36,398 nucleotides of DNA. Origin: Bacillus sp. AFS055030. Its GTDB lineage: Bacteria > Bacillota > Bacilli > Bacillales > Bacillaceae_G. Below the pieces are notes generated by a model, which did not search any database, had not been told where the DNA came from, and saw only the letters and a list, made by a program, of their open reading frames with translations. The stretch's first letter is position 1; every line of letters begins with the position of its first letter. Position numbers and translations under genes: made by a program. This document shows, one piece after another, positions 5,630 to 23,828 of this stretch. The stretch is taken from positions 1 to 36,398 of the forward strand of contig NZ_NUGT01000089.1 in NCBI RefSeq assembly GCF_002574545.1. Reading direction: 5' to 3'.

Positions 5630-7027
5630 ATGTCTACTAATTTGCCGGATATTAGTGATTATAAATATGGTTTTCATGACCGTGACGTATCAATCTTCCG
5701 TTCAGAGCGTGGTTTAACAAAGGATATCGTTGAAGAAATTTCACGTATGAAAAATGAACCACAATGGATGTTAGATTTCCGTTTAAAATCTTTACAACAT
5801 TTCTATGATATGCCAATGCCTCAATGGGGTGGAGACTTAGCAGATTTACGCTTTGATGAAATTACTTACTATGTAAAACCATCAGAGAAAACAGAAAAGT
5901 CTTGGGATGAAGTACCTGAAGAAATCAAAAATACTTTTGATAAATTAGGTATTCCTGAAGCTGAACAAAAGTATTTAGCTGGTGTATCTGCGCAGTATGA
6001 GTCTGAGGTAGTTTACCACAGCATGAAACAAGACTTAACTGATCTTGGTATCTTATTTACTGATACAGACACAGCATTACGTGAGCATGAAGAAATTTTC
6101 AAAGAGCACTTTGGAAAAGTAATTCCTCCTACAGATAACAAATTTGCTGCATTAAACTCAGCTGTTTGGTCTGGTGGATCATTCATCTACGTACCAAAAG
6201 GTGTTAAAGTTGATACGCCATTACAAGCATATTTCCGAATTAACTCAGAAAATATGGGTCAATTTGAGCGTACATTAATTATCGCTGACGAAGGTGCACA
6301 CGTACATTACGTTGAAGGATGTACTGCTCCTGTTTATACAACAAACTCACTTCACTCTGCAGTAGTAGAAATCATCATTAAGAAGGATGCATACTGCCGC
6401 TATACAACAATTCAAAACTGGGCGAATAACGTATTCAACCTAGTTACGAAACGTGCTGTATGTGAAGCGAACGCAACAATGGAATGGATCGATGGAAACA
6501 TTGGTTCAAAATTAACAATGAAATACCCAGCAGTTATCCTTAAAGGTGAAGGTGCTCGTGGCCTAACACTTTCTATTGCAATTGCAGGTAAAGGACAACA
6601 CCAAGATGCTGGTGCTAAAATGATTCACTTAGCTCCAAATACTTCATCTACAATTGTTTCGAAATCTATTTCAAAACATGGTGGTAAAGTAACGTACCGT
6701 GGTATCGTACACTTCGGTCGTAAAGCAGCTGGATCACGTTCAAATATCGAGTGTGATACGTTAATTATGGATAATGCATCAACTTCTGATACAATTCCAT
6801 ACAACGAAATCTTAAACGACAATATTTCTCTTGAGCATGAAGCGAAAGTTTCAAAAGTATCTGAAGAGCAATTATTCTACTTAATGAGCCGTGGTATTTC
6901 TGAGCAAGAAGCTACAGAAATGATCGTAATGGGCTTCATTGAGCCATTTACAAAAGAATTACCGATGGAATATGCAGTTGAAATGAACCGTCTGATTAAA
7001 TTCGAAATGGAAGGTTCTATTGGATAA
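5630..7027 (+). CDS. sufB: Fe-S cluster assembly scaffold SufB, 3' end recoded by the integrated element
   Basis: A 465-residue SufB, the scaffold subunit on which the nascent cluster is built with SufC and SufD. The C-terminal region ([19 protein letters not shown], then SRGISEQEA) is complete, and length is normal. An AGAAGGGAG site precedes the ATG. The gene ends inside attL: the last codons from about 7007, the stop and the terminator at 7037-7060 come from the mobile element. The protein is unchanged because the element encodes the same ending, [11 protein letters not shown]. Confidence 0.98.
7007..7020 (+). other. attL core
   Basis: ATGGAAGGTTCTAT is identical to 23564-23577. Flanks continue with synonymous differences: TTCGAA here against TTCGAG at attR, and GGATAA against GGTTAA. 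Strand exchange most likely falls within these 14 bp. Confidence 0.88.
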
Positions 7028-7073: not shown

Positions 7074-7111
7074 GTACAAAGTTTAATTTCGTGCAAAGTT
7101 CGTGCAAAGTT
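7074..7111. promoter_or_regulatory. left integrase arm-type sites
   Basis: GTGCAAAGTT occurs at 7091-7100 and 7102-7111, 11 bp apart, with a variant GTACAAAGTT at 7074-7083. An inverted near-copy (TTGCAAAGTT on the minus strand, 7173-7182) lies in the integrase gene. The same motif is reiterated at the right end, as expected for binding sites of the integrase N-terminal domain. Confidence 0.75.
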
Positions 7112-7126
7112 GAAATTATTTTAACG

Positions 7127-8314
7127 TTAATTGAAGTTATTTTTAACATGATTATTTGTGACGTAAGCAGTGAACTTTGCAAGTTCATCTGTTTGAATTT
7201 TTCCTGTAATATGCCCATATGTTCTACTTAATTCTTTTGTGTCTTTATGACCTAATCTTTTTGCTATATATATTTCACTTACACCTGATTCAAGGAGTAA
7301 AGTGGCATGAGTGTGCCTGAAAGCATGTAAGCCCCTATATTCAACCCCTGAAGCCTTATGATAGTTCTGAATCGTTTCACGAATGATTGAAGGTGTGAGA
7401 TAATGCCCATTATAATTTTGAAAGATGATTCCATCATTATTTTTCTTGAATCTTGGATTTCCAAGAATCAGTTCATTTTGTTTTGCCTTGAATTTTTTCA
7501 GTTCACGAATAACTTCTTCATCGATGCTGATTACACGATAAGATGAATCATTTTTCAATGTTGTAAGCTGCACTTTGTTATTATCATCACGGCTTGTTTG
7601 CTTGTTGATATCAATCGTATTTCCTTGAACATCTTCCCATCCTAATGCAAGGGCTTCTGATATTCTTAAACCCGTTTTGTATAGTAACATAATCAACATG
7701 TAATACAAACGGTATTCAGGGAACCTTTGATGCTTGTAGGTTCTTAAATAATCCAAAAGTTGATTCATTTCATTAAGGCTGAAATATTTCACTTTTTCAT
7801 CTTCTTTTTTCAAAGCAACATTGTCTTGAACTTCTATCTTCAATCTATCTGCTGGATTCTTTTCAAGCACCTGAAGTTCTTGAACGGCATAAAACAAAAT
7901 ACTTTTTATCACCGATAGATATTTTCGCCTTGACCCTATTGAATATTTAGGCTTTCCATTCTTATCAAGTTCTCCAAAGGCTGCAAGCCAATCTTTCACT
8001 TCTATCCTTGTGATTTTTGCAATTTTTTTATGACCAAAGGCAGGCATCACATGATTTTTTATAATTACTTCAAGCTGTCTGAATGTTGAAGGCTTTGTTG
8101 ATTGCTTTTTCCATTTCAGCCATTGTTCCACAACATATTCAAATGGCATGTTTCTATCCGCTATAGTTTGGCTATAGTATTTTCTTTCTTCGGTTTTTGC
8201 AGCAGCAATTTCAGCTTCTTTTTTTGTTTTGAAACTTCCGATACCTTTTAATTTTCCATCTATATAAATTTGCACCTGATAATTTCCGCTTGGTAATTTT
8301 CTTATGTTTGCCAT
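7127..8314 (-). CDS. int: tyrosine recombinase (integrase)
   Basis: A 395-residue phage/ICE-type integrase. Residues 1-45 resemble the AP2-like arm-binding domain, about 55-165 the SAM-like core-binding domain, and 180-380 the catalytic domain. Catalytic residues visible are R217 (TGLRISEA), K254 (TLKN), H330 and R333 (HAFRH), H356 (RLGHKD) and the nucleophile Y366 (SRTYGH), so it should be active. It lies next to attL facing sufB and is 17 bp downstream of the repressor gene, probably co-transcribed. It would integrate and, with the excisionase, excise the island at sufB. Confidence 0.97.
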   Translation of the reverse strand: MANIRKLPSGNYQVQIYIDGKLKGIGSFKTKKEAEIAAAKTEERKYYSQTIADRNMPFEYVVEQWLKWKKQSTKPSTFRQLEVIIKNHVMPAFGHKKIAKITRIEVKDWLAAFGELDKNGKPKYSIGSRRKYLSVIKSILFYAVQELQVLEKNPADRLKIEVQDNVALKKEDEKVKYFSLNEMNQLLDYLRTYKHQRFPEYRLYYMLIMLLYKTGLRISEALALGWEDVQGNTIDINKQTSRDDNNKVQLTTLKNDSSYRVISIDEEVIRELKKFKAKQNELILGNPRFKKNNDGIIFQNYNGHYLTPSIIRETIQNYHKASGVEYRGLHAFRHTHATLLLESGVSEIYIAKRLGHKDTKELSRTYGHITGKIQTDELAKFTAYVTNNHVKNNFN

Positions 8315-8331: not shown

Positions 8332-8745
8332 TTAACCTTTTAAAATGATTTCGATAACGCTTTTTATTTTTGCTTTTTCTTCTTTGGTCAAAAGCCTGTC
8401 CTGAAAAAATATTGGATGATTGGAATCTAATAAAAAATCAAGGTGGAACGGTTCCTGTTCTTGCTCTGCTAGTGACCATTCTATATCTTCCTGTCTGTTT
8501 TTTTCGTTTTTTATTTTAATAAAATCAGATGCATCAATATATCCTGCTGCTGCCATTAAATTTTCATATGGTTCATCTAAACCTTTTGCCAATCTTTCTA
8601 TAATTTCTGGAGAAGGTCTATCTCGTTTGCCGCTTTCAAGATGTGAAATGTACATAGCAGAAACACCTGATAATTCCCCAAGTTTATTCATTGAAAGGTT
8701 TTTTTCTTCTCTTTTCTTTTTGAGATAATCTGCAAATTTTTTCAT
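8332..8745 (-). CDS. Xre-family repressor (cI/ImmR/Stl-like master regulator)
   Basis: A 137-residue protein with an N-terminal helix-turn-helix: residues 5-62, with NKLGELSGVSAMYISHLESG as the core. The short tail ends in LTKEEKAKIKSVIEIILKG, typical of small Xre repressors. No S24 Ser/Lys self-cleavage domain and no ImmA-like protease gene is visible, so derepression probably needs an anti-repressor or a helper-phage protein. It shares a leftward promoter with int. It most likely binds the four palindromes at 8776-8862, controlling itself and the excisionase-replication operon. Confidence 0.88.
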   Translation of the reverse strand: MKKFADYLKKKREEKNLSMNKLGELSGVSAMYISHLESGKRDRPSPEIIERLAKGLDEPYENLMAAAGYIDASDFIKIKNEKNRQEDIEWSLAEQEQEPFHLDFLLDSNHPIFFQDRLLTKEEKAKIKSVIEIILKG

Positions 8746-8913: not shown

Positions 8914-9204
8914 ATGCTTAACATTTCTTTAGACGAAAATGAATTAAAGAAATTATATTTAGAAGAAGTCCGTAAACGTGTGGATGAAATTGAGGAACAG
9001 AAGTTGTTTATAGATGTTAATGAACTTTGCAAAATGCTTTCACTAAGCAGACCAACAGTAGAAAAATTATTTATTTCCAATCCGAATTTTCCTTCTTTGC
9101 GAGTGGGTAAGAAGTGGTTATTTCCTCGTAAAGAGGTAGAGGAATATATCAAACGTTGGTCAAGTGATGTTCGAAAGAATGGTGGCATTGTAGATTGCAA
9201 TTAA
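8914..9204 (+). CDS. xis: excisionase-like helix-turn-helix protein
   Basis: A 96-residue protein with an HTH_17/excisionase domain at about residues 34-80 (LCKMLSLSRPTVEKL ... LRVGKKWLFPRKEVEEYI), preceded by a charged helix. First gene of the rightward operon; AAGGAGG (8898-8904) is 9 nt before the ATG. The predicted role is directing integrase towards excision, though such proteins may also regulate transcription. The excisionase name rests on the fold and on its place in the switch. Confidence 0.8.
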   Translation: MLNISLDENELKKLYLEEVRKRVDEIEEQKLFIDVNELCKMLSLSRPTVEKLFISNPNFPSLRVGKKWLFPRKEVEEYIKRWSSDVRKNGGIVDCN

Positions 9205-9491: not shown

Positions 9492-11309
9492 ATGAAAACG
9501 AAAATAGCAACCGAAGCAGCAAAGACAAAAAAAGAGACCGATGAAATTATAGTAGCAACAATTTCAAGTGACGATTTGGATATAGATTTAGAAAAGATTG
9601 TGGATGTCATGACTGATTATTTTGATATTCAAAAACTTGATTTGGATGAAGATTATGCTCGAATGTATTTTAGGAAACCTGAGAATTATGTTCACGAACC
9701 AGAAGGTCTGTGTGTTTTGGGTTTCAAAATGAATTGGGAATTATGTTCAGCTAAAGAGGTCGATCTTAATCTGGACGATCTGGAACAAGAATTGCCCGAT
9801 TTTTTAACCTCCTTTATTGATGCAAAAAATTTTTTCGAAGGTTTGAGCGATTCAGCAATAAATACGAGTCTTATTCATGGAAATCCGAAAAGGATTTTTA
9901 ATTTATTTAACAGAAGAAAAAATTTGCTGTTTGATTATAAACGTATAATCAAACATTTGGAATACCATGAAGAGATTTTGCAATTTATTGATGAAATATT
10001 AAAAGAACGACAATATGAAATTAATGAACAATTAGATGATAACCTCAAAATTGAAAAAAACAATGAACAAGAGGTTGCCGAAAAATTAATTCATAAATTA
10101 AAGACTGTAAAATTTAATGATTCGCTTTACACATACCATCATAAATGCTTTCGTACGGGTGATTTTCTTGCCCAAAATGTCATTAGGGAATTAAAAGGTT
10201 TTGGGGTTAGTTCAAGATATTTGAATGAGGTCGTAAAGCAAATCAAGATTCATTCCCCATCAATAGAAAAACCTCAAGACGGTTGGTCAATCAAATTTCA
10301 AAATGGTTGTTTGTATAATGGTGAATGGTACCCTATTGATTTTACAGGTTTTACACCTCATTATATCAATCTTCGGTATGATCCTCACGCTGAATCGGTT
10401 CCAGTGGTAGACAGGTTTCTAAATTTCTTCACTGGAGATGATGAGGATTATCGGAATTTTATCCTAGAAACCATTGCACTTTGTTTGATTACAGATCCGA
10501 ATGTAAAACGGTTTGAGGATTTTCAGCGAATTACGTTTTTTCATGGAGACGGAAAAAACGGCAAAGGAGTGCTGCTGAATATAATCCGTGCGCTGTTAGG
10601 AGGGGAAAACGTGTCCTCTCTTTCACTTGAGAATATTATAGATGAAAAGTATTTATTTAGTTTGAGAAATAAACTAGCTAATTGTGGGGATGATCTTGAA
10701 AACAAACCGATTAATGCTAGGACAACGAAGGCGCTTAAAAATTTAGCATCCAATGATCCGATACAAATAAGAAAAATGTATGAAAACTCAACAGAAGAAG
10801 TTCTAACGGCAACTCACATATATAGTACAAATCATATTTTGACATCAAGTGAAAAAGGGAATGCTTGGAAAAGAAGGTTAATATGGTGTCCTGCTTTTGA
10901 AAAACCAATTGTCAAAGATCCCGATCTTCAAAAAAAATTAACGCAGCAGGATGCTCTAGAATATATGTTACGGCTTGTCATGGAAGCATATTTCCGATTA
11001 TATGAAAAAAGGGCATTTACAAAATGCCAAAAGGTTCAAGATTGTACGGACAATTACCATGAAGAAAATAATACTGCCTTAAGTTGGATTCGGGCAAAAG
11101 GTAAAGATTTTTTTATTAATAAACGTTCCCCTCAAGTCTACAACGATAATAAGGGCGATGATTTTGCGACATGGCATAAAGAAAATTACGGTGGAAGACC
11201 TCCAATTAATTGCATACAATTGAAAGAAAGTATCATGGAAGTTCATAATTTGGTTGTCAAACCTACAACGGTTAAAGGAAAACCAGAACGAGTGTTTAAA
11301 GAAAACTAG
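9492..11309 (+). CDS. rep: P4/D5-type replication protein (SF3 helicase)
   Basis: A 605-residue protein. Walker A is GDGKNGKG near residues 352-359. It is followed by the Walker B-like acidic segment LANCGDDLE near 394 and a sensor-like STNHI near 445. The preceding region (about 210-330) resembles the D5_N domain of phage/plasmid P4-family primase-helicases. The first 200 residues are acidic and show no recognisable primase active site, so primase activity is not claimed. AAGGAG lies 6 nt before the ATG. It is expected to unwind DNA at the origin-like region just after the gene and drive replication of the excised island. Confidence 0.88.
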   Translation: MKTKIATEAAKTKKETDEIIVATISSDDLDIDLEKIVDVMTDYFDIQKLDLDEDYARMYFRKPENYVHEPEGLCVLGFKMNWELCSAKEVDLNLDDLEQELPDFLTSFIDAKNFFEGLSDSAINTSLIHGNPKRIFNLFNRRKNLLFDYKRIIKHLEYHEEILQFIDEILKERQYEINEQLDDNLKIEKNNEQEVAEKLIHKLKTVKFNDSLYTYHHKCFRTGDFLAQNVIRELKGFGVSSRYLNEVVKQIKIHSPSIEKPQDGWSIKFQNGCLYNGEWYPIDFTGFTPHYINLRYDPHAESVPVVDRFLNFFTGDDEDYRNFILETIALCLITDPNVKRFEDFQRITFFHGDGKNGKGVLLNIIRALLGGENVSSLSLENIIDEKYLFSLRNKLANCGDDLENKPINARTTKALKNLASNDPIQIRKMYENSTEEVLTATHIYSTNHILTSSEKGNAWKRRLIWCPAFEKPIVKDPDLQKKLTQQDALEYMLRLVMEAYFRLYEKRAFTKCQKVQDCTDNYHEENNTALSWIRAKGKDFFINKRSPQVYNDNKGDDFATWHKENYGGRPPINCIQLKESIMEVHNLVVKPTTVKGKPERVFKEN

Positions 11310-13681: not shown

Positions 13682-14485
13682 ATGCTCTTTCAGGAACAAA
13701 AAAAATCGGGTTTGGTTCGATTATCAGATTGTATAAAACACGGAGTGTATAACGCAGCCCAAGACACAAAAGAGCTGAACATAGTTTCCCTTTCCCAAAA
13801 ATCACAAATTCAGTATTCAAAAGAAATAGCGGCTAAGATGGAGAAAGGAGAGATTGATCCTAGTGAGGCAGAAGAGCTAATAAAAACAAATGGAATGAGC
13901 TTAGATGATGCTATTAGAGGGGCAGCAATACAGTCAGCTTTACATAATCAGTGTTTAACTACTATTCTTACCACATGTTTTACCTTAGAATCATACATAA
14001 ATTCATTTGCATACTATCTTGCAAAACATCACGGACGCAAAGGGAAACTTAATGGAAAACAGCTTCCTTATACTGATGAATTTACAAAATTGAGTACCGT
14101 AAAGAAATGGATTAAAGTTGTTAAAATCTCAACAGGCATAGAGTACCGAACTGATGCGGCTGACAATCCTTTTGGTGACCTAAAAATACTATTTAAATTT
14201 AGGAACGATCATGTTCATGACAAAGTAGTAGGTATGTCCAATGATAAGTCATTGACTAGTTATAATGGAAAACTGCCAGATCCTGTATTTGGTCTTTTGG
14301 ATATAAACCATGTCTTGTTTGCAGTAGATACTTACTGGAATCTAATTAAGTGGGTCCATAGGCAAATTGGAGTTAGTCAAGAAGAATTTCATATGCACTA
14401 TAATCTAAGCCCATGGATTAGTCCAGAGGTGGAGAAAGAAATAAGGGACATTGCAACAACTAATGATGGATTTATGGAAGATTGA
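13682..14485 (+). CDS. HEPN-like protein with Rx4H motif
   Basis: A 267-residue, mostly helical protein. Residues 90-115 (LTTILTTCFTLESYINSFAYYL) form a long helix, and FKFRNDHVHDK holds R174 and H179, giving the Rx4H arrangement of HEPN ribonucleases. It resembles the stand-alone HEPN-type proteins of mobile elements. No MNT-type nucleotidyltransferase partner is adjacent. First gene of the cargo, with AAGGAGG 9 nt before the ATG. In this setting an RNase acting in abortive infection is plausible but inferred; nuclease activity is not shown by sequence alone. Confidence 0.6.
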   Translation: MLFQEQKKSGLVRLSDCIKHGVYNAAQDTKELNIVSLSQKSQIQYSKEIAAKMEKGEIDPSEAEELIKTNGMSLDDAIRGAAIQSALHNQCLTTILTTCFTLESYINSFAYYLAKHHGRKGKLNGKQLPYTDEFTKLSTVKKWIKVVKISTGIEYRTDAADNPFGDLKILFKFRNDHVHDKVVGMSNDKSLTSYNGKLPDPVFGLLDINHVLFAVDTYWNLIKWVHRQIGVSQEEFHMHYNLSPWISPEVEKEIRDIATTNDGFMED

Positions 14486-15611: not shown

Positions 15612-18600
15612 ATGGAAGAAACAACAGTTTATCAAGCGGTAAGCCATTCATTTGATAAGATAATCCATGATTTAGAAGGAAAGGATATGGTCCAACGTGA
15701 TCGTGGGACACTTTTTGAATTGTTGGTTACAGCATATTTGAAACATGAGCCTATGTATGCACGTTTGTTTGATGAAGTATGGATGTTGGGGAGTGTTCCT
15801 GAAGAGTATGGAGTTCCTAAGAAAGATACTGGTGTGGACTTGGTTGCTCGGAATAGGGAAACTGGTGAGTTGGTTGCTATTCAATGTAAGTATTATTCGA
15901 AAGATACGACAATACAAAAGTCTCATATTGATTCTTTCCTAAACGAAGTAGGGAAGAGCTATTATGCAGAAGGGATTATTGTTACTTCAACGGATAAGTG
16001 GAGCAGTAATGCGAATGACGCTCTGTTGAATCGTGATAAGAATATTGCTCGTATTGGGTTGTCTCAGTTGCGTGATAGTGAAATTGATTGGTCAAAGTTT
16101 TCAGTTGAGAAACCGAAGATAGTTGAATTGAAAACTGCTAAACAACCACGACCTCATCAGATTCCAGCGATTGAGGCAGTAGTAAATGGATTTGGGTCTG
16201 TTGATCGTGGAAAGCTGATTATGGCTCCAGGTACAGGGAAAACCTATACTTCTATGGTAATTGCTGAGAAGATGGCAGAGAAGAAAGATGGAACCTTTAG
16301 GGTATTGTATCTTGTTCCTAGTATTCAGTTGCTTTCTCAATCATTGAGAGGTTGGACTGCGGATTCTAAATATCGTCAAGATATGGATACTTTTGCAGTT
16401 TGTTCGGATAGAAAAGTTACAAAGAAGGAAAAAGGTGAAAATGAGTTTGAGGATATTGCAGCAGCAGACTTGGGTTATCCAGCGACAACGGATTATCAAA
16501 AGCTATTGGAACGTCAGAAAGATATTGACTCAGCTAAAAGTCATAGCAAGTTCTTAGTAGTGTTTTCAACGTATCAGTCAATTGATGTAATCAGTGAGGC
16601 ACAGAAGAATGGTTTCTATGAGTTTGATTTGGTTGTCTGTGATGAAGCGCACCGTACAACTGGTGCAACAGAAGCAGGAAAAGAAGCTAGCCCTTTTGTG
16701 AAAGTGCATAGCGATAACAATATTAAAGCTAAGAAACGTTTGTATCAAACAGCAACGCCTCGGATTTATGGAGAAGATGCCCAGCAGAAAGCAGATGAAA
16801 TGTCTGTCATTATTGCGGATATGAACGATGAAAACATTTATGGTGAAGAGTTTTACCGTATTGGCTTTGGAGATGCAGTAAACAAAGGGATTTTAACGGA
16901 CTATAAGGTAATGGTTCTAGCCGTTGATGAAGAAGTGATTGCTCGTCGTTTTCAAACTATGTTGGCGAATAAAAAAGATACAGAACTTGAATTTGATGAT
17001 GTAACGAAAATTATCGGTTGTTGGAATGGTTTAATTAAACGTAAGAGCAATTCTAACGTGATTTCTGCCAATCCTATGAAACGTGCGATTGCTTTCGCTG
17101 GAACGATTCGTGAGTCGAAATTGATTAAAGAAATGTTCACCGAAGTTGTGGATATGTATATCAATGAGTCAGGAGACCAAACAGAGACAGTTCGAGTTGA
17201 AATTGATCATGCAGATGGTTCAATGAATGCGTTGCAAAAGAATGAAAAGATTTCTTGGTTGAAAGCGGAAGTTCCACCAAACACATGTCGTATCCTTTCT
17301 AATGCACGATTCCTTACAGAAGGTGTAGACGTGCCTGATCTGGACGCTGTTATGTTCTTAAAACCTCGTAAATCACGTATTGATATTGCACAAGCTGTTG
17401 GGCGTGTTATGCGTAAAGCAGAAGGAAAAGATTATGGATATGTCATTCTTCCTATTGGTATTCCAGCTGGTGTTGATGAAAATACGGTGTTAGGTAAAAA
17501 TGAAAAGTATCAAGTAGTATGGGACGTTCTAAATGCGTTGCGTTCACTAGATGAACGTTTTGATGCAACAATCAATAAATTGGAATTGAACAAGAAGAAA
17601 CCTGAACAGTTACAAGTTATTGGGGTAGGTTCTGCCCCAGACGAAAGTGAAGGCGGATTTACCATAGCAGAGCCAGTAATAGAACAGTTGTCGCTAAATC
17701 TTGATGAAGAAGATTTCTCGGACATTGAACGTGCGATTTACGGAAAGATCGTAAAGAAGGTCGGTAATGTACGATATTGGGAAGATTGGTCGAAAGACGT
17801 TGCGGAAATTGCTCAGCAACACATGATGCGCATTCAAGTAATGCTGGAAGATACGAATAGTGAGGCATACAACGCTTTCCAAAAATTCGTATCAGGACTA
17901 CGGCATAACATCAATGGTGCCATTTCAGACCAACAAGCCATTGAAATGTTGGCTCAACACTTGATCACGAAACCAGTATTTGAAGCATTGTTTGATTCAT
18001 ATAGTTTTGCGAATGATAATCCTGTATCACGAGCTATGGACACTATGTTGAAAGTTATGGACGAACAGGGGCTTGTGAAGGAACAGAAACGCTTAGAAGA
18101 CTTCTATGAGAGCGTGCGTGTGCGTGCTGAGGGAATTGATAACCTCAAAGCAAAACAGGACATTATCATTCAGCTTTACGATAAGTTCTTTAGGGTAGGG
18201 TTCAAGGAAACGACAGAGCGTTTGGGAATTGTGTTTACGCCAGTTGAAGTTGTGGATTTCATTATTCATTCCGTAAATGAAGTGCTGAAGAAGCACTTTG
18301 GTAAGTCGATTAGTGATGAAGGGGTTCATGTACTCGATCCTTTTATTGGTACAGGGACGTTTATCGTTCGATTGTTGCAGAGCGGATTGATTTCTAAGGA
18401 AGATTTGTTGCGTAAGTACACTCAAGAACTTCATGCCAATGAAATTGTGCTGTTGAGCTATTACATTGCTGCGATTAATATTGAAGAAACATTCCATTCA
18501 ATTATGGAAGGTGATTATAAGTCGTTTGAAGGTATTGTTTTGACGGATACGTTTGAAAGTACGGAGAAAGAGGATTCGTTTGAGGATGATTTGTTTGGAG

Positions 18601-20345
18601 AAAATAATGAACGTCTTGAACGTCAACGAAAAGAGCCAATTTTTGCGATTATTGGAAATCCTCCGTATTCTAAAAATCAACGAAATGGGAATGAAAATAA
18701 TCAAAATAATTCTTATCCTAGGTTAGAGGATAGTATTACAAATAGTTATGCCAAATACTCAAAAGCAACTGCTAAAAATAGCTTATTTGATTCTTATATT
18801 GAAGCATTCAGATGGTCGTCGGATAGAATTACGAATAAAGGTGTAATTGGTTTTATAACTAATGCATCATTTATAGATAGCCAGAGTACTGATGGTTTAC
18901 GTAAATGTTGGTATGAAGAGTTTAATTATATTTATATATTTAATTTACGTGGAGATGCTCGAACTCAGGGAGAACAACGTAGAAAAGAATCGGGAAATGT
19001 TTTCGGTGGAGGAAGTCGAACTCCTGTTGCAATCACTTTATTGGTGAAAGATGGATACAATAACCATGAAATTTACTATCATGACATAGGAGATTACTTA
19101 ACTCAACAACAAAAATTAGATATTTTAGAAACATCGAAATCAATCAATGGAATTGACTGGAATGTTATAGTTCCTGATTCAAATAATGACTGGATTAATC
19201 AAAGAGACGAAAACTATTTATCATACCCTGCAATAGCTGGAGAAAATGAGTCGTATTTTAATGTGTTTTCATTGGGTGTACAAACATCTCGTGATGCTTG
19301 GGTAATGGGCTACTCAAAAGAAAAGACTATTGCTAATGCAGAAAGAATGGTCGCAAATTTTAACTCTGAAATTGATAGACTCAAAAACATAAAAGATTCG
19401 AACGAAAAGTTATCTAAAATCAATAATTCTGATTCTTTTATAAAATGGTCTGATGGATTGAAGAAGCGACTAGTTAGTAATGAAAGAATCGAATTAAGTA
19501 GAACAAATGTTACCAAGTCATTATATCGTCCATTTACGAAGAAATATTTTTACTATGATAAACCAATTATTCATCGACCTGCAAAATATAAAGAGGTATT
19601 TGGAGATAACAATAAAATAATCTTTATTACTGGAATAGGTATTTCTAAAGATTTTTCTGCTTTAATGTTAGATAATATTCCTAATTATCATACGATGGAT
19701 ACTGGAAAAGGATTTTTCTTGAATGATTCCAGTAAATTGGGATCACTATTTACAGACAATAGTAATATCACGGATTATATTAAGGACAAACTAAGTTTAT
19801 CTGATGAAGAGGTATTTAATTATGTTTATGGTGTATTCCATTCACCTCATTATCGTGAAAAATATGCCAACGACCTAAACAAAGCATTGCCACGTATCCC
19901 AATTTTGAAGAACAGAGAAAAGTTTGTTGAAGTTGGTCGAAAACTTGCAGATTTACATTTGAATTACGAGAGTGTTCCTGCGTACGAACTAGTAAACATC
20001 GAGTACAAATCTCAAACGCCATCGTATCGTGTACAAAAGATGAAACATCCAAAACGTGGTCAATTTGATACTATCGTATTTAACAGCAACATCACGATTA
20101 GCAATATTCCTGAAAAAGCTTATGAATATGCGGTAAATGGTCGCCCTGCAATTGAATGGATTATTGATCAATATCAAGTTAAAACAGATCAGAAGTCAGG
20201 AATTACAGATGACCCAAATGATTATTCTGATGATGAAAAGTATATCTTCAATTTATTGTTATCTGTGATTAATGTATCTGTTCAAACGGTTGATTTGGTA
20301 AACAGCTTGCCACCGTTTGAAATTGTAGATGTAGAGTTGAAATAA
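15612..20345 (+). CDS. Type ISP restriction-modification enzyme (LlaGI-like)
   Basis: A single 1577-residue chain combining restriction and modification. An Mrr-type nuclease lies at about 1-165 with D76 (TGVDLVA) and the QCK motif (91-93). An SF2 helicase/translocase follows, with APGTGKT (205-211), DEAH (344-347), TATPR (380-384) and the GRVMR motif VI near 597. A gamma-type N6-adenine methyltransferase has GIVFTPVEVVDF near 872, DPFIGTGTF near 907 and NPPY near 1015. The remaining 500 residues should hold the recognition domain. Size and order match LlaGI/LlaBIII, which methylate one strand of an asymmetric site and translocate before cutting. No separate specificity gene is needed. GGAGGG precedes the ATG; all key motifs are intact. 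Confidence 0.95.
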   Translation: MEETTVYQAVSHSFDKIIHDLEGKDMVQRDRGTLFELLVTAYLKHEPMYARLFDEVWMLGSVPEEYGVPKKDTGVDLVARNRETGELVAIQCKYYSKDTTIQKSHIDSFLNEVGKSYYAEGIIVTSTDKWSSNANDALLNRDKNIARIGLSQLRDSEIDWSKFSVEKPKIVELKTAKQPRPHQIPAIEAVVNGFGSVDRGKLIMAPGTGKTYTSMVIAEKMAEKKDGTFRVLYLVPSIQLLSQSLRGWTADSKYRQDMDTFAVCSDRKVTKKEKGENEFEDIAAADLGYPATTDYQKLLERQKDIDSAKSHSKFLVVFSTYQSIDVISEAQKNGFYEFDLVVCDEAHRTTGATEAGKEASPFVKVHSDNNIKAKKRLYQTATPRIYGEDAQQKADEMSVIIADMNDENIYGEEFYRIGFGDAVNKGILTDYKVMVLAVDEEVIARRFQTMLANKKDTELEFDDVTKIIGCWNGLIKRKSNSNVISANPMKRAIAFAGTIRESKLIKEMFTEVVDMYINESGDQTETVRVEIDHADGSMNALQKNEKISWLKAEVPPNTCRILSNARFLTEGVDVPDLDAVMFLKPRKSRIDIAQAVGRVMRKAEGKDYGYVILPIGIPAGVDENTVLGKNEKYQVVWDVLNALRSLDERFDATINKLELNKKKPEQLQVIGVGSAPDESEGGFTIAEPVIEQLSLNLDEEDFSDIERAIYGKIVKKVGNVRYWEDWSKDVAEIAQQHMMRIQVMLEDTNSEAYNAFQKFVSGLRHNINGAISDQQAIEMLAQHLITKPVFEALFDSYSFANDNPVSRAMDTMLKVMDEQGLVKEQKRLEDFYESVRVRAEGIDNLKAKQDIIIQLYDKFFRVGFKETTERLGIVFTPVEVVDFIIHSVNEVLKKHFGKSISDEGVHVLDPFIGTGTFIVRLLQSGLISKEDLLRKYTQELHANEIVLLSYYIAAINIEETFHSIMEGDYKSFEGIVLTDTFESTEKEDSFEDDLFGENNERLERQRKEPIFAIIGNPPYSKNQRNGNENNQNNSYPRLEDSITNSYAKYSKATAKNSLFDSYIEAFRWSSDRITNKGVIGFITNASFIDSQSTDGLRKCWYEEFNYIYIFNLRGDARTQGEQRRKESGNVFGGGSRTPVAITLLVKDGYNNHEIYYHDIGDYLTQQQKLDILETSKSINGIDWNVIVPDSNNDWINQRDENYLSYPAIAGENESYFNVFSLGVQTSRDAWVMGYSKEKTIANAERMVANFNSEIDRLKNIKDSNEKLSKINNSDSFIKWSDGLKKRLVSNERIELSRTNVTKSLYRPFTKKYFYYDKPIIHRPAKYKEVFGDNNKIIFITGIGISKDFSALMLDNIPNYHTMDTGKGFFLNDSSKLGSLFTDNSNITDYIKDKLSLSDEEVFNYVYGVFHSPHYREKYANDLNKALPRIPILKNREKFVEVGRKLADLHLNYESVPAYELVNIEYKSQTPSYRVQKMKHPKRGQFDTIVFNSNITISNIPEKAYEYAVNGRPAIEWIIDQYQVKTDQKSGITDDPNDYSDDEKYIFNLLLSVINVSVQTVDLVNSLPPFEIVDVELK

Positions 20346-20390
20346 AGTCACAATGTTTATAAAAAGCTGTACCTTGTTATTCTAAATTTT

Positions 20391-20415
20391 AGCCCCTTTA
20401 TAGGGGTTTTTATTT
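20391..20415 (+). terminator. terminator after the Type ISP gene
   Basis: CCCC (20393-20396) and GGGG (20403-20406), with flanking A/T pairs, are followed by TTTTTATTTT. Confidence 0.85.
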
Positions 20416-20721
20416 TGCCATAAAACGTCCATATTATTGGATAGGAAGTAATGTTTCAAGGGCGAATAATAAGGTGATTATTATTTTATCCGCCAGTTAG
20501 TGAAAGGGTTTTATGCATTTCCTAAATAATCATCTGTCCTTAACAGTAGAATGTCTTTTACTGCCGACCAAAAAAACAGATTCTAATTGAATATCAATGG
20601 TATAATGGTTTTAATTTTAAGGGTTTTAGCATGTCAGTTAGTTCAACTGCAATTATTTGTAAATGTGATGTAAAATGTCTGTAGCATATATATAAATAAG
20701 CTTCAATGGGGTGGGGATGTA
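20416..20721. other. non-coding gap before the three-gene cassette
   Basis: No convincing gene. It holds a hairpin AATAATAA/TTATTATT (20465-20472, 20478-20485) and an AT-rich stretch near 20680-20700 that probably contains the cassette promoter, though no clear -35/-10 pair stands out. The G-rich segment GGGGTGGGG just before 20722 serves as ribosome site. Confidence 0.5.
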
Positions 20722-21972
20722 ATGATTGAGAATTACAATGACTTATCAGATTTGCAAAGAAGTAATGTTGAATATTTTTTAGCAAGAGCTGATTCTAATA
20801 GGTTAAATATATTGCATGACAAATTTAATGTAATCCGTGGTAGAAATCATATTAATTACAGAGAAAATGTTGTTCGTGATTTGATGATTGGTCAAGTTCC
20901 ATTTTCACCTTTTTTGACCTGGCTTTGTCATGTGGAATTGGAAGGGAATGACTCATTATTTATTTACGAGGCAGAGGAAGAGGATTTTCTGAATGAACAT
21001 ACAATAGACTCTTTATATGAATCCCAAATTAATAATTTAACTCCACTATATAATATTAATCCTGATCAGTTGAAAAAAATTGAACTTGTTGATGTATCAA
21101 AAATACCCGAGAAGGAACAAGTAATTTTTACAATTGCAGCACCCTCTCAAATACAAGTAAAAAAACTGGATGGGCAAATCGAATTGAGAAACCATGTCTA
21201 TCTTGCATATATCGTTGTTGATTTTAAAATCAAATCAGTCATATTATTTATGCATCCAACTGCTGGACTCACCTCTATATATGGTGAAAGTAAAAAAAGG
21301 GAAATCGATGATGTGACTTGGATTATCCTACACTATTTTAGGGAAAATATCCTTGAATTCACTCTAAAAGAACCAGAATGGATTGTAAATGCTTTGGCAA
21401 AGATTTCTGAGGAATATTTTTACCATAATAATCCTATAATAGAAGAAAAAATTGAAAATTTTTCTGAAAAGTTTATGCCTGATATAATAAAAATGCTCAA
21501 AGAATTTGATCCTCATATGGACAGGGAGGATTCTTTATTAAGGCTTAAAAGAGGTATAGAGGGTATATATGAAAGTGAAATGATTGTAATTCATAAACGA
21601 ATTGAAAGAGAAATTTCGTTCCGTATATTTCTACAACAATCCGATAGAGGATTGACTCAATTTAGAGCAAATACTCGTGGTAAAGCCTTAAGTCATGCGG
21701 AAGCTGCAGATATTATTCGCTTAATGTGGGAACACGGTGAAGTTTTAAATGTAGGAATAATTCATGCTGAAAACCAGAAGGAATATCCATATATTATAAA
21801 GAAATTAGAAAAGTATTATTCATTAAAAAAATATACAACTTCAGGTACTGAGAAGGAGGTAGTAGATAATGTTTTACGAAAACTTAATAAATACAAAGAG
21901 GAAGTTGAATCTATCTATTCCTTCTCAGGTATTGAAGAAATTGGACTTGGAATTGACGATTCTCAAGCCTGA
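20722..21972 (+). CDS. hypothetical protein, gene 1 of the three-gene nuclease cassette
   Basis: A 416-residue soluble protein that I do not recognise; no signal peptide or membrane segment. The N-terminal 220 residues mix helices and strands (a beta-rich stretch HVYLAYIVVDFKIKSVILF near 175-195). The middle is helical and acidic (about 235-300). The C-terminal third has FRANTRGKALSHAEAADIIR (about 310-330) and a lysine-rich helix. No ATPase or nuclease motif is seen. The ATG is the only sensible start. The next gene begins 104 nt before its stop in another frame, and the nuclease gene follows, so the three are probably one operon; it could be sensor or regulator. Confidence 0.75.
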   Translation: MIENYNDLSDLQRSNVEYFLARADSNRLNILHDKFNVIRGRNHINYRENVVRDLMIGQVPFSPFLTWLCHVELEGNDSLFIYEAEEEDFLNEHTIDSLYESQINNLTPLYNINPDQLKKIELVDVSKIPEKEQVIFTIAAPSQIQVKKLDGQIELRNHVYLAYIVVDFKIKSVILFMHPTAGLTSIYGESKKREIDDVTWIILHYFRENILEFTLKEPEWIVNALAKISEEYFYHNNPIIEEKIENFSEKFMPDIIKMLKEFDPHMDREDSLLRLKRGIEGIYESEMIVIHKRIEREISFRIFLQQSDRGLTQFRANTRGKALSHAEAADIIRLMWEHGEVLNVGIIHAENQKEYPYIIKKLEKYYSLKKYTTSGTEKEVVDNVLRKLNKYKEEVESIYSFSGIEEIGLGIDDSQA

Positions 21973-22270
21973 TGCCACAGCATCACCACACTATTTATCC
22001 CGAAAAACAGGTATTCCACTTTCACTGATGGGAACAATTTTATCAACTTTGGTTCATGATTCAGTGCTTGATGCTAGATTCTTTATCTTCTGTAACAATG
22101 ATGATCCAGAATTAATCCATGGTTTTGAATTTATGGGTAAAAAAGAACTTCGAGATTTTATTATTGCCCAAAAATTTACTTGCCCTCATTGTGATTCAAA
22201 ATTAAATACCCAAAATATTAGGGTAGCATTTGTGAAGAAAGAGCTACCCCCACCCCCAAAAGCACTTTGA
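21869..22270 (+). CDS. winged-helix-like / zinc-ribbon protein, gene 2 of the cassette
   Basis: A 133-residue protein starting inside gene 1. A perfect AAGGAGGT (21853-21860) lies 8 nt before ATG 21869, which supports real initiation despite the 104-nt overlap. Residues 38-75 (SPHYLSRKTGIPLSLMGTIL and on) read like a winged-helix DNA-binding unit. CPHC near residue 109 looks like half of a zinc ribbon, with no second pair of cysteines visible, so metal binding would need a partner or a dimer. A Pro-rich tail ends the chain. Probably the DNA- or partner-binding adaptor of the cassette; function is inferred only. Confidence 0.75.
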   Translation: MFYENLINTKRKLNLSIPSQVLKKLDLELTILKPDATASPHYLSRKTGIPLSLMGTILSTLVHDSVLDARFFIFCNNDDPELIHGFEFMGKKELRDFIIAQKFTCPHCDSKLNTQNIRVAFVKKELPPPPKAL

Positions 22271-22282
22271 GGTGATAATTTT

Positions 22283-23053
22283 ATGAAAGACACAATCTCA
22301 GGAAAGAAATTTATGGTTACTGCACCTGATCATGAGGTATGGACGCCAATACCCAACGAAGAATTAGATTACTATCAACAACTTATTAATAATGTCCGAA
22401 CGACTCTAGAAGCTGGTACTAAGAAAGAAAAAGGCGATGCATTAGAAAATCTAATGACATATGTATATGAAAGGTTTGAAATTGCATATGTTGAACCTAA
22501 CGTACATAGAGGGGATAATCAAATAGATCATATAATTGAATTCATTGATGGAATGGTGCCACCTTTTATATATAGGCATATTGGGATTAGAATGATTGGG
22601 GAATCTAAAAATCATAAAGAGTCTATTGGAGTAAGAGAGGTAACCGATTTGGTTGAACTATTACGCTCAAAAAAAGCAAATGTAGGTGTATTTAGTTCAT
22701 TTAAAACCTTTAGTAGAGGAAGAAACAAAAGTCCATGGATTAATGCTGAAGGAAAGAGAAGAAAACTAGCTTTAGCAAATAATAATGAAAAAATAATTCT
22801 TGGTTTTACGGTTGATGAATTAGAGTCACTTAAAACTAATAATTTTTATACTCTATTAAAACAAAAATATTTTTCATTAATTGACGAAATCGATGATGAT
22901 GTTACTGATTATCCTACTGAAGATTTAGCTCTGCCATATCATATCAGATTATATGATTCCTTAAGACAATTAAAAGAGAATGGAATTATTGATGATGAAA
23001 GCTTTCAAAAAGGAAAATCCGCTCTTGAAAGGCGCTATGGAGAACTTATATAA
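22283..23053 (+). CDS. PD-(D/E)XK restriction-type nuclease with SHOCT-like tail, gene 3 of the cassette
   Basis: A 256-residue protein. Residues 45-165 have an Mrr/REase-like core: a helix with KGDALENLM (conserved Glu), then NQIDHIIEF (catalytic Asp), then RMIGESKNHK (ExK motif), followed by GVREVTDLVELL and GVFSSFKTFSRG. These are the elements of a PD-(D/E)XK nuclease. The last 30 residues (LRQLKENGIIDDESFQKGKS) look like a SHOCT motif, usually found at protein ends and linked with oligomerisation. GAGGTGA lies before the ATG, 12 nt after gene 2. The active site looks intact, making it the likely effector. Confidence 0.82.
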   Translation: MKDTISGKKFMVTAPDHEVWTPIPNEELDYYQQLINNVRTTLEAGTKKEKGDALENLMTYVYERFEIAYVEPNVHRGDNQIDHIIEFIDGMVPPFIYRHIGIRMIGESKNHKESIGVREVTDLVELLRSKKANVGVFSSFKTFSRGRNKSPWINAEGKRRKLALANNNEKIILGFTVDELESLKTNNFYTLLKQKYFSLIDEIDDDVTDYPTEDLALPYHIRLYDSLRQLKENGIIDDESFQKGKSALERRYGELI

Positions 23054-23154
23054 TGCTGAAATGGTGGCAGAAAAAAGAACGAATGTTTTGTTAAAGACAT
23101 GCAATAGTACGTAGAAAAAAACTTCATAGTTTACGGAACCTAAAGGGAAGATGG

Positions 23155-23176
23155 AGATCGCTGCAGCGGTCTTTTT
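23155..23176 (+). terminator. terminator of the three-gene cassette
   Basis: AGATCGC (23155-23161) and GCGGTCT (23166-23172) enclose the loop TGCA, then TTTT. Confidence 0.75.
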
Positions 23177-23273
23177 GTTTTATGATTTTTCGTAACTTAA
23201 CCAACCGAAAATCCAGCCGTCTAGATTGGCTTTATAGACCGTTTATAATATAAACAAAGTCTCATGAGCAAAT

Positions 23274-23312
23274 GAAAAAAACTAACAGATTTTATTCTGT
23301 TAGTTCTTTTTT
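23274..23312. terminator. bidirectional terminator near the right end of the island
   Basis: ACTAACAG (23281-23288) and CTGTTAGT (23297-23304) form a perfect stem with an A-run before and a T-run after, so it can stop transcription on both strands. It insulates the island from the chromosome. Confidence 0.8.
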
Positions 23313-23408
23313 GATATCCTCTTTCCACAAGCAATCTATTATGTCGAAAATTGCATTTTAAAGCCCTGCAAACCCATAGTTTATGCAGCTTCAACCCATG
23401 CCATAAGC

Positions 23409-23451
23409 GTGCAAAGTTCGTGCAAAGTTTGTGCAAAGTTCATGCAAAGTT
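23409..23451. promoter_or_regulatory. right integrase arm-type sites, four phased copies
   Basis: GTGCAAAGTT occurs at 23409-23418, 23420-23429 and 23431-23440, with ATGCAAAGTT at 23442-23451. Spacing is exactly 11 bp, so all sites face the same side of the helix. They lie about 115 bp inside attR and match those inside attL. Confidence 0.8.
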
Positions 23452-23563
23452 TAGTTTATAAGAACAGTTTGATATAATTTCCAAAACGCTTTATATCAAT
23501 AGTTGAAGGGGCTTTTTTGGATGTAGTTTGATGCTATTTTACGCACAATTAATCAAGTTCGAG

Positions 23564-23577
23564 ATGGAAGGTTCTAT
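23564..23577 (+). other. attR core with leftover sufB 3' end
   Basis: Identical to 7007-7020. The frame through it (23549-23584) still encodes [11 protein letters not shown] and a stop with different codons from the live copy. Similarity to sufB stops just upstream, so this is only an att-site remnant. Confidence 0.88.
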
Positions 23578-23598
23578 CGGTTAATATTGTTTTTAGTG

Positions 23599-23629
23599 GA
23601 GGCGAACTTTTTTAGTTCGTCTCTTTTTT
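23599..23629 (+). terminator. native suf operon terminator, displaced by the island
   Basis: GAGGCGAAC (23599-23607) pairs with GTTCGTCTC (23615-23623), with one G-T pair, followed by TTTTTT. It lies 15 bp after the old sufB stop, the usual spot for an operon terminator, and is now 16.6 kb from the gene it served. Confidence 0.8.
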
Positions 23630-23828
23630 AGTAGTTTTAAGAAATTTTCCTACCATGCAGAACAAGCTAACTATCGTGTTCGTCATTACAGTAAAGTGGC
23701 GGTAAAATAATGAAGAAATGAGCTCTGCAAAAAAGCATTCCCCAAAAAAGTGAAGAATGGTTTTTTATGACTATCTGTTTTAGGAAATGATCTTTCTACT
23801 ATACAACTCATTAAGATAAATAATGGTT
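23630..23828. other. intergenic stretch with a short coding remnant
   Basis: A frame ending at about 23710 reads YHAEQANYRVRHYSKVAVK and then a stop, with no start or ribosome site in front; it may be the tail of a decayed gene. A hairpin CATTC/GAATG (about 23738-23760) followed by TTTTTT could be that gene's terminator. Nothing else is recognisable. Confidence 0.35.

Follow-up and report, generated by a model that had tools for sequence, protein, structure and literature searches.

What do three tightly packed genes at the end of an island in Bacillus sp. AFS055030 do for the element that carries them, and do they belong together at all? The genes lie in a stretch of 36,398 nucleotides (nt), here called the window (assembly GCF_002574545.1, contig NZ_NUGT01000089.1, positions 1 to 36,398), and an earlier reading made from the sequence alone had proposed them as an undescribed defence cassette, composed of an unknown protein, a winged-helix/zinc-ribbon adaptor and a PD-(D/E)XK nuclease with a SHOCT-like tail. 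The analysis reported here establishes that the three genes are a true unit with conserved order and a long overlap of genes 1 and 2, which is found next to a CI-like repressor and downstream of it, in other slots of prophages, or on elements resembling satellites. As to function, we lean towards the view that the three proteins form one complex, expressed by a prophage or satellite in lysogeny, that would exclude other phages. The cassette comprises the following features:

20722..21972, + strand: gene 1, 416 amino acids, the proposed sensor, an alpha/beta protein for which an RdgC/RexA-like fold is suggested.
21869..22270, + strand: gene 2, 133 amino acids, the proposed adaptor, with a winged helix and a C75/H84/C105/C108 zinc site.
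22283..23053, + strand: gene 3, 256 amino acids, an Mrr-type PD-(D/E)XK nuclease, the proposed effector.
23153..23174, + strand: terminator-like hairpin 3' of gene 3, with a second hairpin at 23280-23305.

All three open reading frames are present as first proposed, on one strand, with genes 1 and 2 overlapping by 104 nt (21869-21972) and a gap of 12 nt (22271-22282) before gene 3. The cassette had also been credited with a terminator of its own, and the two hairpins behind gene 3 agree with that; on both strands of 20300-23650, six hairpins were found versus 1.4 expected. An alignment search with gene 3 returned 11 loci each from bacterial genomes and from viral contigs, and one with gene 1 returned eight loci in viral contigs, all on contigs among gene 3's 11. 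All three genes, in the same order and direction, occur at every one of them (22/22 and 8/8). Removal of duplicates (three gene-3 loci and the eight gene-1 loci) left 19 loci, or 20 with the window, and the trio, long overlap included, is carried by 20/20, the proteins being 21-72% identical to those of the window, in a sample where divergent or stand-alone copies are under-represented because both query alignments derive from six trios and confirmation works in favour of close relatives. The possibility that homologues of the three genes would rarely be found together thereby falls away.

The overlap of genes 1 and 2 measures 68-128 nt in 20/20 loci, with starts picked by script. Moreover, pairwise protein distances co-vary among the three proteins (Mantel r 0.94, 0.87 and 0.87; 0 of 2000 permutations each), and between the window and the two loci nearest to it, L016 and L017, the nonsynonymous divergence (dN) is 0.22-0.31 against a synonymous divergence (dS) of 1.4-2.4, the latter near saturation. 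Mean identity is lowest for gene 1, at 31%, versus 41% for gene 3. In the second of these two loci (L017:10640-13335), an istAB pair of IS21 type, recognized by eye, lies directly behind gene 3, whose last ~30 residues differ from those of its relatives; this is probably a disrupted copy.

Each of the three proteins matches, over nearly its full length, a PHROG family whose function is listed as unknown: PHROG 6078 for gene 1 (E 1.3e-12, residues 64-393), PHROG 6096 for gene 2 (E 7.4e-4) and PHROG 6350 for gene 3 (E 5.8e-22). By these profiles the trio is rare. PHROG 6078 is found in 4/397 genomes of the order, with the trio present in all four, and PHROG 6350 in 5/398 genomes of the class, the source genome included; of these five, two carry the trio (the window's own and one other, G529), one holds a divergent variant (G743), one has the nuclease in another context (G670) and one match contains an internal stop (G412). 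Gene 1 occurs in 1/19 genomes of the family, which is the source genome itself, and a gene 2 profile run over 398 genomes recovered the window and two weak partial matches (4.9e-4 and 9.4e-4). The hosts named by the records are all Bacillota, namely Cytobacillus, Domibacillus, Alteribacillus, Niallia, Paenibacillus, Pontibacillus, Tumebacillus and one metagenome bin. Searches with tblastn gave no match for gene 1 or gene 3 of the window among named phages and plasmids, nor for gene 1 of locus L036 and gene 3 of L037 among named phages or gene 3 of L036 among plasmids.

Judged by its domain and catalytic residues, gene 3 encodes an intact Mrr-type nuclease. The motif set KGDALENL, QIDH and ESK that had been picked out by eye is real, and its residues E55, D82, E107 and K109 are invariant in 20/20 members. 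The Pfam family Mrr_cat reaches E 4.9e-4 in the window, 20.6 bits versus a cut-off of 21, and is matched at E <= 1 by 19/20 members, with a best value of 3.9e-6. The SHOCT-like tail has faded from this description: the window protein matches SHOCT weakly, SHOCT and SHOCT_2 each appear in 1/20 members (E 0.0071 and 0.014), and the tail was rejected as a functional part of the protein.

Gene 2 reaches no Pfam, PADLOC or NCBIfam cut-off (window protein), and its assignment as a winged helix with a zinc ribbon draws support from weak profile matches, a structural model and an invariant ligand set. Its profile matches the winged helices of eS25 (E 0.0018, the best) and AdcR (0.029), and its structural model, with a predicted local distance difference test score (pLDDT) of 94.4, resembles archaeal TFE and MarR-type proteins at E-values of at least 0.02, none at 0.001. 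The ligands C75, H84, C105 and C108 are invariant in 20/20 members of the main family.

Gene 1 likewise reaches no Pfam, PADLOC or NCBIfam cut-off in the window. Among the matches listed for a Pfam scan of its 20 members there are 14 names, each in one member, with a best E of 0.0061, and sequence searches of the PDB with genes 1 and 3 returned nothing meaningful. At E <= 1, no family of PADLOC 2.0.0 matches gene 1, 2 or 3 of the window, which bears out the statement that the first two resemble no named defence system. The model of gene 1 (pLDDT 84.8, predicted template-modelling score 0.80) has as its top Foldseek match in the PDB the RdgC protein of Escherichia coli (2owl_B, E 5.9e-4, probability 1.00), and at rank 7 in BFVD stands a phage 'Recombination-associated protein' (E 0.015, probability 0.95). 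An RdgC/RexA-like fold is thus suggested by the model.

In part of the loci, the genomic surroundings of the unit recall lambda. The commonest context among the 20 loci is a lysogeny module, not a defence island: in 8/20, an opposite-strand XRE gene and a same-strand XRE gene precede the trio, an ImmA-like peptidase is found in six of these eight, and a same-strand integrase follows the trio in five, the available stretch ending within 750 nt in the other three. The XRE, ImmA and integrase profiles were seeded with proteins picked by eye, partly from the same loci; a Pfam check afterwards identified the same-strand XRE genes as HTH_3 in 8/8, one ImmA as Peptidase_M78 and one serine integrase as Recombinase, the remaining integrases and ImmA genes and the opposite-strand XRE genes being assigned by the seeded profiles. 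This order is the cro-cI-rexAB arrangement of lambda, with the trio in the rexAB position, on the same strand behind a CI-like repressor. Elsewhere the unit occupies other slots. The three profiles have no match in 7/20 loci, and, by eye, the trio follows a lysis-type amidase in at least two loci (L025, L037) and stands ahead of HNH and terminase-like genes in at least two (L035, L036). A relative of the Type ISP enzyme at E <= 1e-10 lies in 1/20 loci, the window (flanks of 5-21 kb upstream and 3 nt-13 kb downstream), and this enzyme was rejected as a partner of the trio.

The PHROG 6350 match in G743 (E 2.4e-13) led to a second form of the cassette, L010, of 359 + 119 + 214 amino acids with a 65-nt overlap. 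A viral contig (L112) carries a relative of this variant (361 + 120 + 212 amino acids, 38-nt overlap) directly after a gene that is TerS-like by eye, and a tblastn search of named phages with the L010 nuclease gave matches over 74% of the query in seven Staphylococcus phage records under five names. Two of these phages, Henu2 and vB_Q2, hold a variant of 349 + 121 + 227 amino acids with an 86-nt overlap, between endolysin and integrase and annotated as hypothetical throughout:

MK211557.1 11094-13103 (L115) and L116:2516-4525: variant cassette, Staphylococcus phages Henu2 and vB_Q2.

A contig resembling a Staphylococcus aureus pathogenicity island (SaPI) is among the carriers of the variant. 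Its gene 3 is homologous to that of the main family (hhalign 99.5%, E 3.9e-22), and so is its gene 2 (90.1%, E 1.6e-6; score 41.2 versus a maximum of 13.7 in 30 shuffles); its gene 1 is not recognisable as a relative of the main-family gene 1 by hhalign, with a score of 15.0 versus a shuffled mean of 14.9. An unrecognisable gene 1 beside a kept gene 2-3 pair is what would be seen of a fast-changing sensor. A 664-amino-acid haloarchaeal plasmid protein (L117, NZ_CP100403.1 91588-93582) has a C-terminal stretch like the L010 nuclease (26% identity, E 6e-5).

The best reading of these observations is a Rex-like exclusion system whose effector would be an Mrr-type nuclease in place of a membrane pore. 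Gene 1 would be a DNA-bound sensor with the RdgC/RexA fold, forming a dimer on DNA and responding to a structure or protein that an infecting phage produces as it replicates. The overlapping start would keep production of gene 2 coupled to that of gene 1, gene 2 may dock the nuclease on gene 1, and, once gene 1 is triggered, gene 3 would cut either phage DNA or all DNA of the cell, the latter amounting to abortive infection. Such a working mode would be like that of lambda RexAB, with the nuclease replacing the membrane effector RexB. There is no methyltransferase in the conserved unit, and therefore self-protection would come from the trigger rather than from marking of the DNA. The sensor-adaptor-nuclease design first proposed is reasonable and partly supported overall, some support coming from the DNA-binding fold suggested for gene 1 and from its rapid change beside the kept gene 2-3 pair. 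More tentatively, and with less than even confidence, a phage-exclusion class of Bacillota may be envisaged, in which a DNA clamp of RexA/RdgC fold in lambda's rex position licenses an Mrr-type DNase via a winged-helix adaptor; between the Bacillus-type and Staphylococcus-type versions, the sensor would have been replaced or have diverged beyond recognition and the adaptor and nuclease been kept, the versions reading different phage triggers.

Several results weigh against the exclusion reading. The RdgC match to the gene 1 model has low template-modelling scores (0.30/0.39, root-mean-square deviation 11.4) and is the sole PDB match at E <= 0.001; no RexA structure is among the best 50 PDB matches listed, and the four BFVD matches at E <= 0.001 are all unnamed or uncharacterised. 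Profile comparison by hhalign found no sequence similarity between gene 1 and RdgC (0.4%), CarolAnn gp44 (0.2%) or a loosely defined DUF4747-type set (0.1%), in a test of low power, as it misses even the accepted relationship of RexA to RdgC (0.05%). The DUF4747-type set comprises seven proteins, of which two pass the Pfam DUF4747 cut-off, one lies below it, one (from locus L021) has no match and three were chosen by similarity to the L021 protein (E 1.5e-15 to 1.5e-5). Sequence homology of gene 1 to RdgC, RexA, this set or CarolAnn gp44 was set aside, the comparison having given no usable signal. Gene 1 and lambda RexA did score 29.4 versus a shuffled maximum of 23.0 (0/60 as high), over 43 columns and as the best of ~10 comparisons; other sets of RexA type did not reproduce the raised score, which is not taken as proof. 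In addition, the repressor-trio arrangement is not seen in 12/20 loci, the window included, and a position in the lysogeny module also fits a switch function. Finally, the gene 2 of the variant lacks the zinc ligands; because it is homologous all the same and the gene 1 beside it is unrecognisable, the design can do without the zinc site, and gene 1 is the part that varies.

Other explanations share part of this evidence. One is a Type IV-like restriction complex that depends on modification, where gene 1, gene 2 or both would read a modified base and gene 3 would cut nearby, as Mrr does in one chain; Mrr_cat as the best family of gene 3, the winged helix of gene 2 and, as far as Type ISP relatives show, a unit without methyltransferase would all suit this explanation. 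However, Pfam scans of the 20 gene-1 members and of gene 2 from the window turned up no known reader of modified bases, and Mrr_cat is common to many systems and so gives no pointer to modification, and we regard such a complex as unlikely. A non-defence role is also rather improbable, though it has precedents: the trio could adjust induction, excision or recombination, either as a regulator of the prophage or as a module of DNA metabolism, in the way that RexA acts on the lambda switch and RdgC on RecA. RexA is described as biasing the lambda switch independently of RexB (PMC11077077), and both the eight lysogeny-module loci and the RdgC-like fold of the gene 1 model accord with such a role. 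Yet the trio also stands at a late lysis end, before HNH/terminase-like genes and in stretches without a repressor or integrase match (7/20), and the variant follows TerS or endolysin, which fits portable cargo better than a part of a switch; moreover, the nuclease residues are strictly kept.

The idea with least to commend it is an addiction unit, in which gene 3 would be a DNase toxin held by gene 1, gene 2 or both and stabilising the element. Overlapping, probably co-translated genes on mobile elements with the nuclease last in the operon recall such modules, but toxin-antitoxin pairs are mostly small two-gene units, and gene 1, at ~400 amino acids, is large for an antitoxin and the least conserved of the three; we consider this very unlikely. 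An ATP-binding cassette (ABC) three-component system was considered on account of the size of gene 2, which is that of a middle component, and was rejected, as NCBIfam gave no match and the unit lacks an ABC ATPase gene.

How the unit, read as an exclusion system, compares with systems already described can be set out in some detail. Mrr carries a DNA-binding domain in the same chain as its nuclease. The trio shares with Mrr-type restriction endonucleases a nuclease domain with the E-D-ExK set, and differs in that its candidates for DNA binding are encoded by separate genes and that gene 3 carries a C-terminal extension of its own. It departs from restriction-modification in that a methyltransferase, judged by Type ISP relatives, is not in the conserved unit (1/20 loci). 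In fold, the gene 1 model comes closest to RdgC, the ring-shaped DNA-binding dimer of E. coli; gene 1 is 113 amino acids longer, has a nuclease gene behind it in 20/20 loci and shows no profile similarity. Published accounts cover four systems of RexAB type, lambda RexAB, CarolAnn 43/44, Sbash 30/31 and RexABpp of Pseudomonas putida, whose expression is joined to that of the prophage repressor or takes place close to it, except in Sbash, which has a promoter of its own for the pair (PMC11077077, PMC6426606, PMC6426596, PMC12894663); RexA is presented there as a structural relative of RdgC (PMC11077077). The trio resembles these in being prophage-borne, would follow the same sensor and effector logic and may share a DNA-binding first protein of RdgC-like fold, as suggested for gene 1. 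Unlike them, it has three genes rather than two, and its partners are a winged-helix/zinc protein and an Mrr-type nuclease, with no four-helix membrane RexB (no transmembrane predictor was run). Gene 1 has no sequence match to RexA (PF15969, PADLOC RexA) or DUF4747 in PADLOC for the window or in Pfam for the 20 members, libraries that both recognise lambda RexA.

There are candidate RexAB-type pairs as well. At L021:4582-6290, 2.2 kb upstream of the trio, a 315-amino-acid protein similar by eye to DUF4747/RexA-like proteins of Bacillota is followed by a hydrophobic one of 254, a possible RexAB-type pair by eye; the first has no DUF4747 or PADLOC match. The pair resembles those at L085:771-2277, L086:1210-2587 and L087:1030-2434, where a DUF4747-type protein (below the Pfam cut-off in L087, and in L085 without a PADLOC match) precedes a membrane-like one in Bacillota, probably RexAB-type systems. 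In L094, near 1176 and 2725, a relative of the L021 RexA-like protein lies beside a gene that is serine-integrase-like by eye, the type of slot that the trio has in L019. Viral scans for relatives of the L021 RexA-like protein and of the L010 nuclease found none.

The output of the PHROG library links families 6078, 6096 and 6350 neither to one another nor to defence, and the three numbers, as typed, do not occur in the open-licence PubMed Central (PMC) papers searched. No paper describing the trio was found in open-licence PMC, subscription journals and preprints outside PMC not being covered, and the available portions of PMC13373217 and PMC11087260 hold no description of it. The trio is thus described by no PADLOC 2023 model and by no open-licence PMC paper that these searches found, and recent systems elsewhere could include it.

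In the window itself, a satellite-like island of 16.6 kb is inserted at the 3' end of sufB and has the trio as its last cargo; the word 'satellite' refers to the island's integrase and primase, packaging genes not having been sought systematically. The other features of the island are:

6995..7027, + strand: attL, 3' end of sufB and left island end, a 33-nt direct repeat 85% identical to 23552-23584.
7127..8314, - strand: tyrosine integrase (Phage_integrase E 2.7e-21).
8332..8745, - strand: XRE-type repressor (HTH_3 E 3.9e-13).
8914-9204: small helix-turn-helix protein, excisionase-like by eye.
9492..11309, + strand: DUF5906 primase/helicase-like, satellite-type replication gene (DUF5906 E 9.5e-15).
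15612..20345, + strand: Type ISP restriction-modification enzyme (Type_ISP_C E 1.8e-96), neighbouring cargo outside the cassette.
23552..23584, + strand: attR, second copy of the sufB 3' end and right island end.

That the trio sits beside a Type ISP enzyme in the cargo zone of an island has accordingly been confirmed, the island by its integrase, repressor, primase, att repeats and empty sites. The gene sufB is present in 13/13 genomes of the genus searched, the source genome included; the right flank of the window lies close behind its end in 3/12 congeners, which are empty sites, and further from it in two, and was not seen within 1.5 kb in seven. The first 573 nt of the island were found in 0/12 congeners. 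The repeats GTGCAAAGTT at 7085-7119 and 23403-23459 are perhaps arm sites of the integrase. Another island protein of 267 amino acids (13682-14485), with no Pfam match above cut-off and no PADLOC match, contains an RNDHVH stretch resembling the HEPN Rx4H motif.

The trigger of RexA, and the way in which a sensor that binds DNA passes its signal to an effector, have been open questions since the rII work of Benzer. If the exclusion reading is true, a soluble Rex-like system ending in a nuclease would make such sensing biochemically tractable, as DNA could be added and cutting looked for. Three PHROG families now listed as unknown would gain a function, and hypothetical genes would be accounted for in several prophages of Bacillota, where they occupy the lysogeny slot, as well as in Henu2 and other Staphylococcus phages. 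One cassette would then serve temperate phages and their satellites alike.

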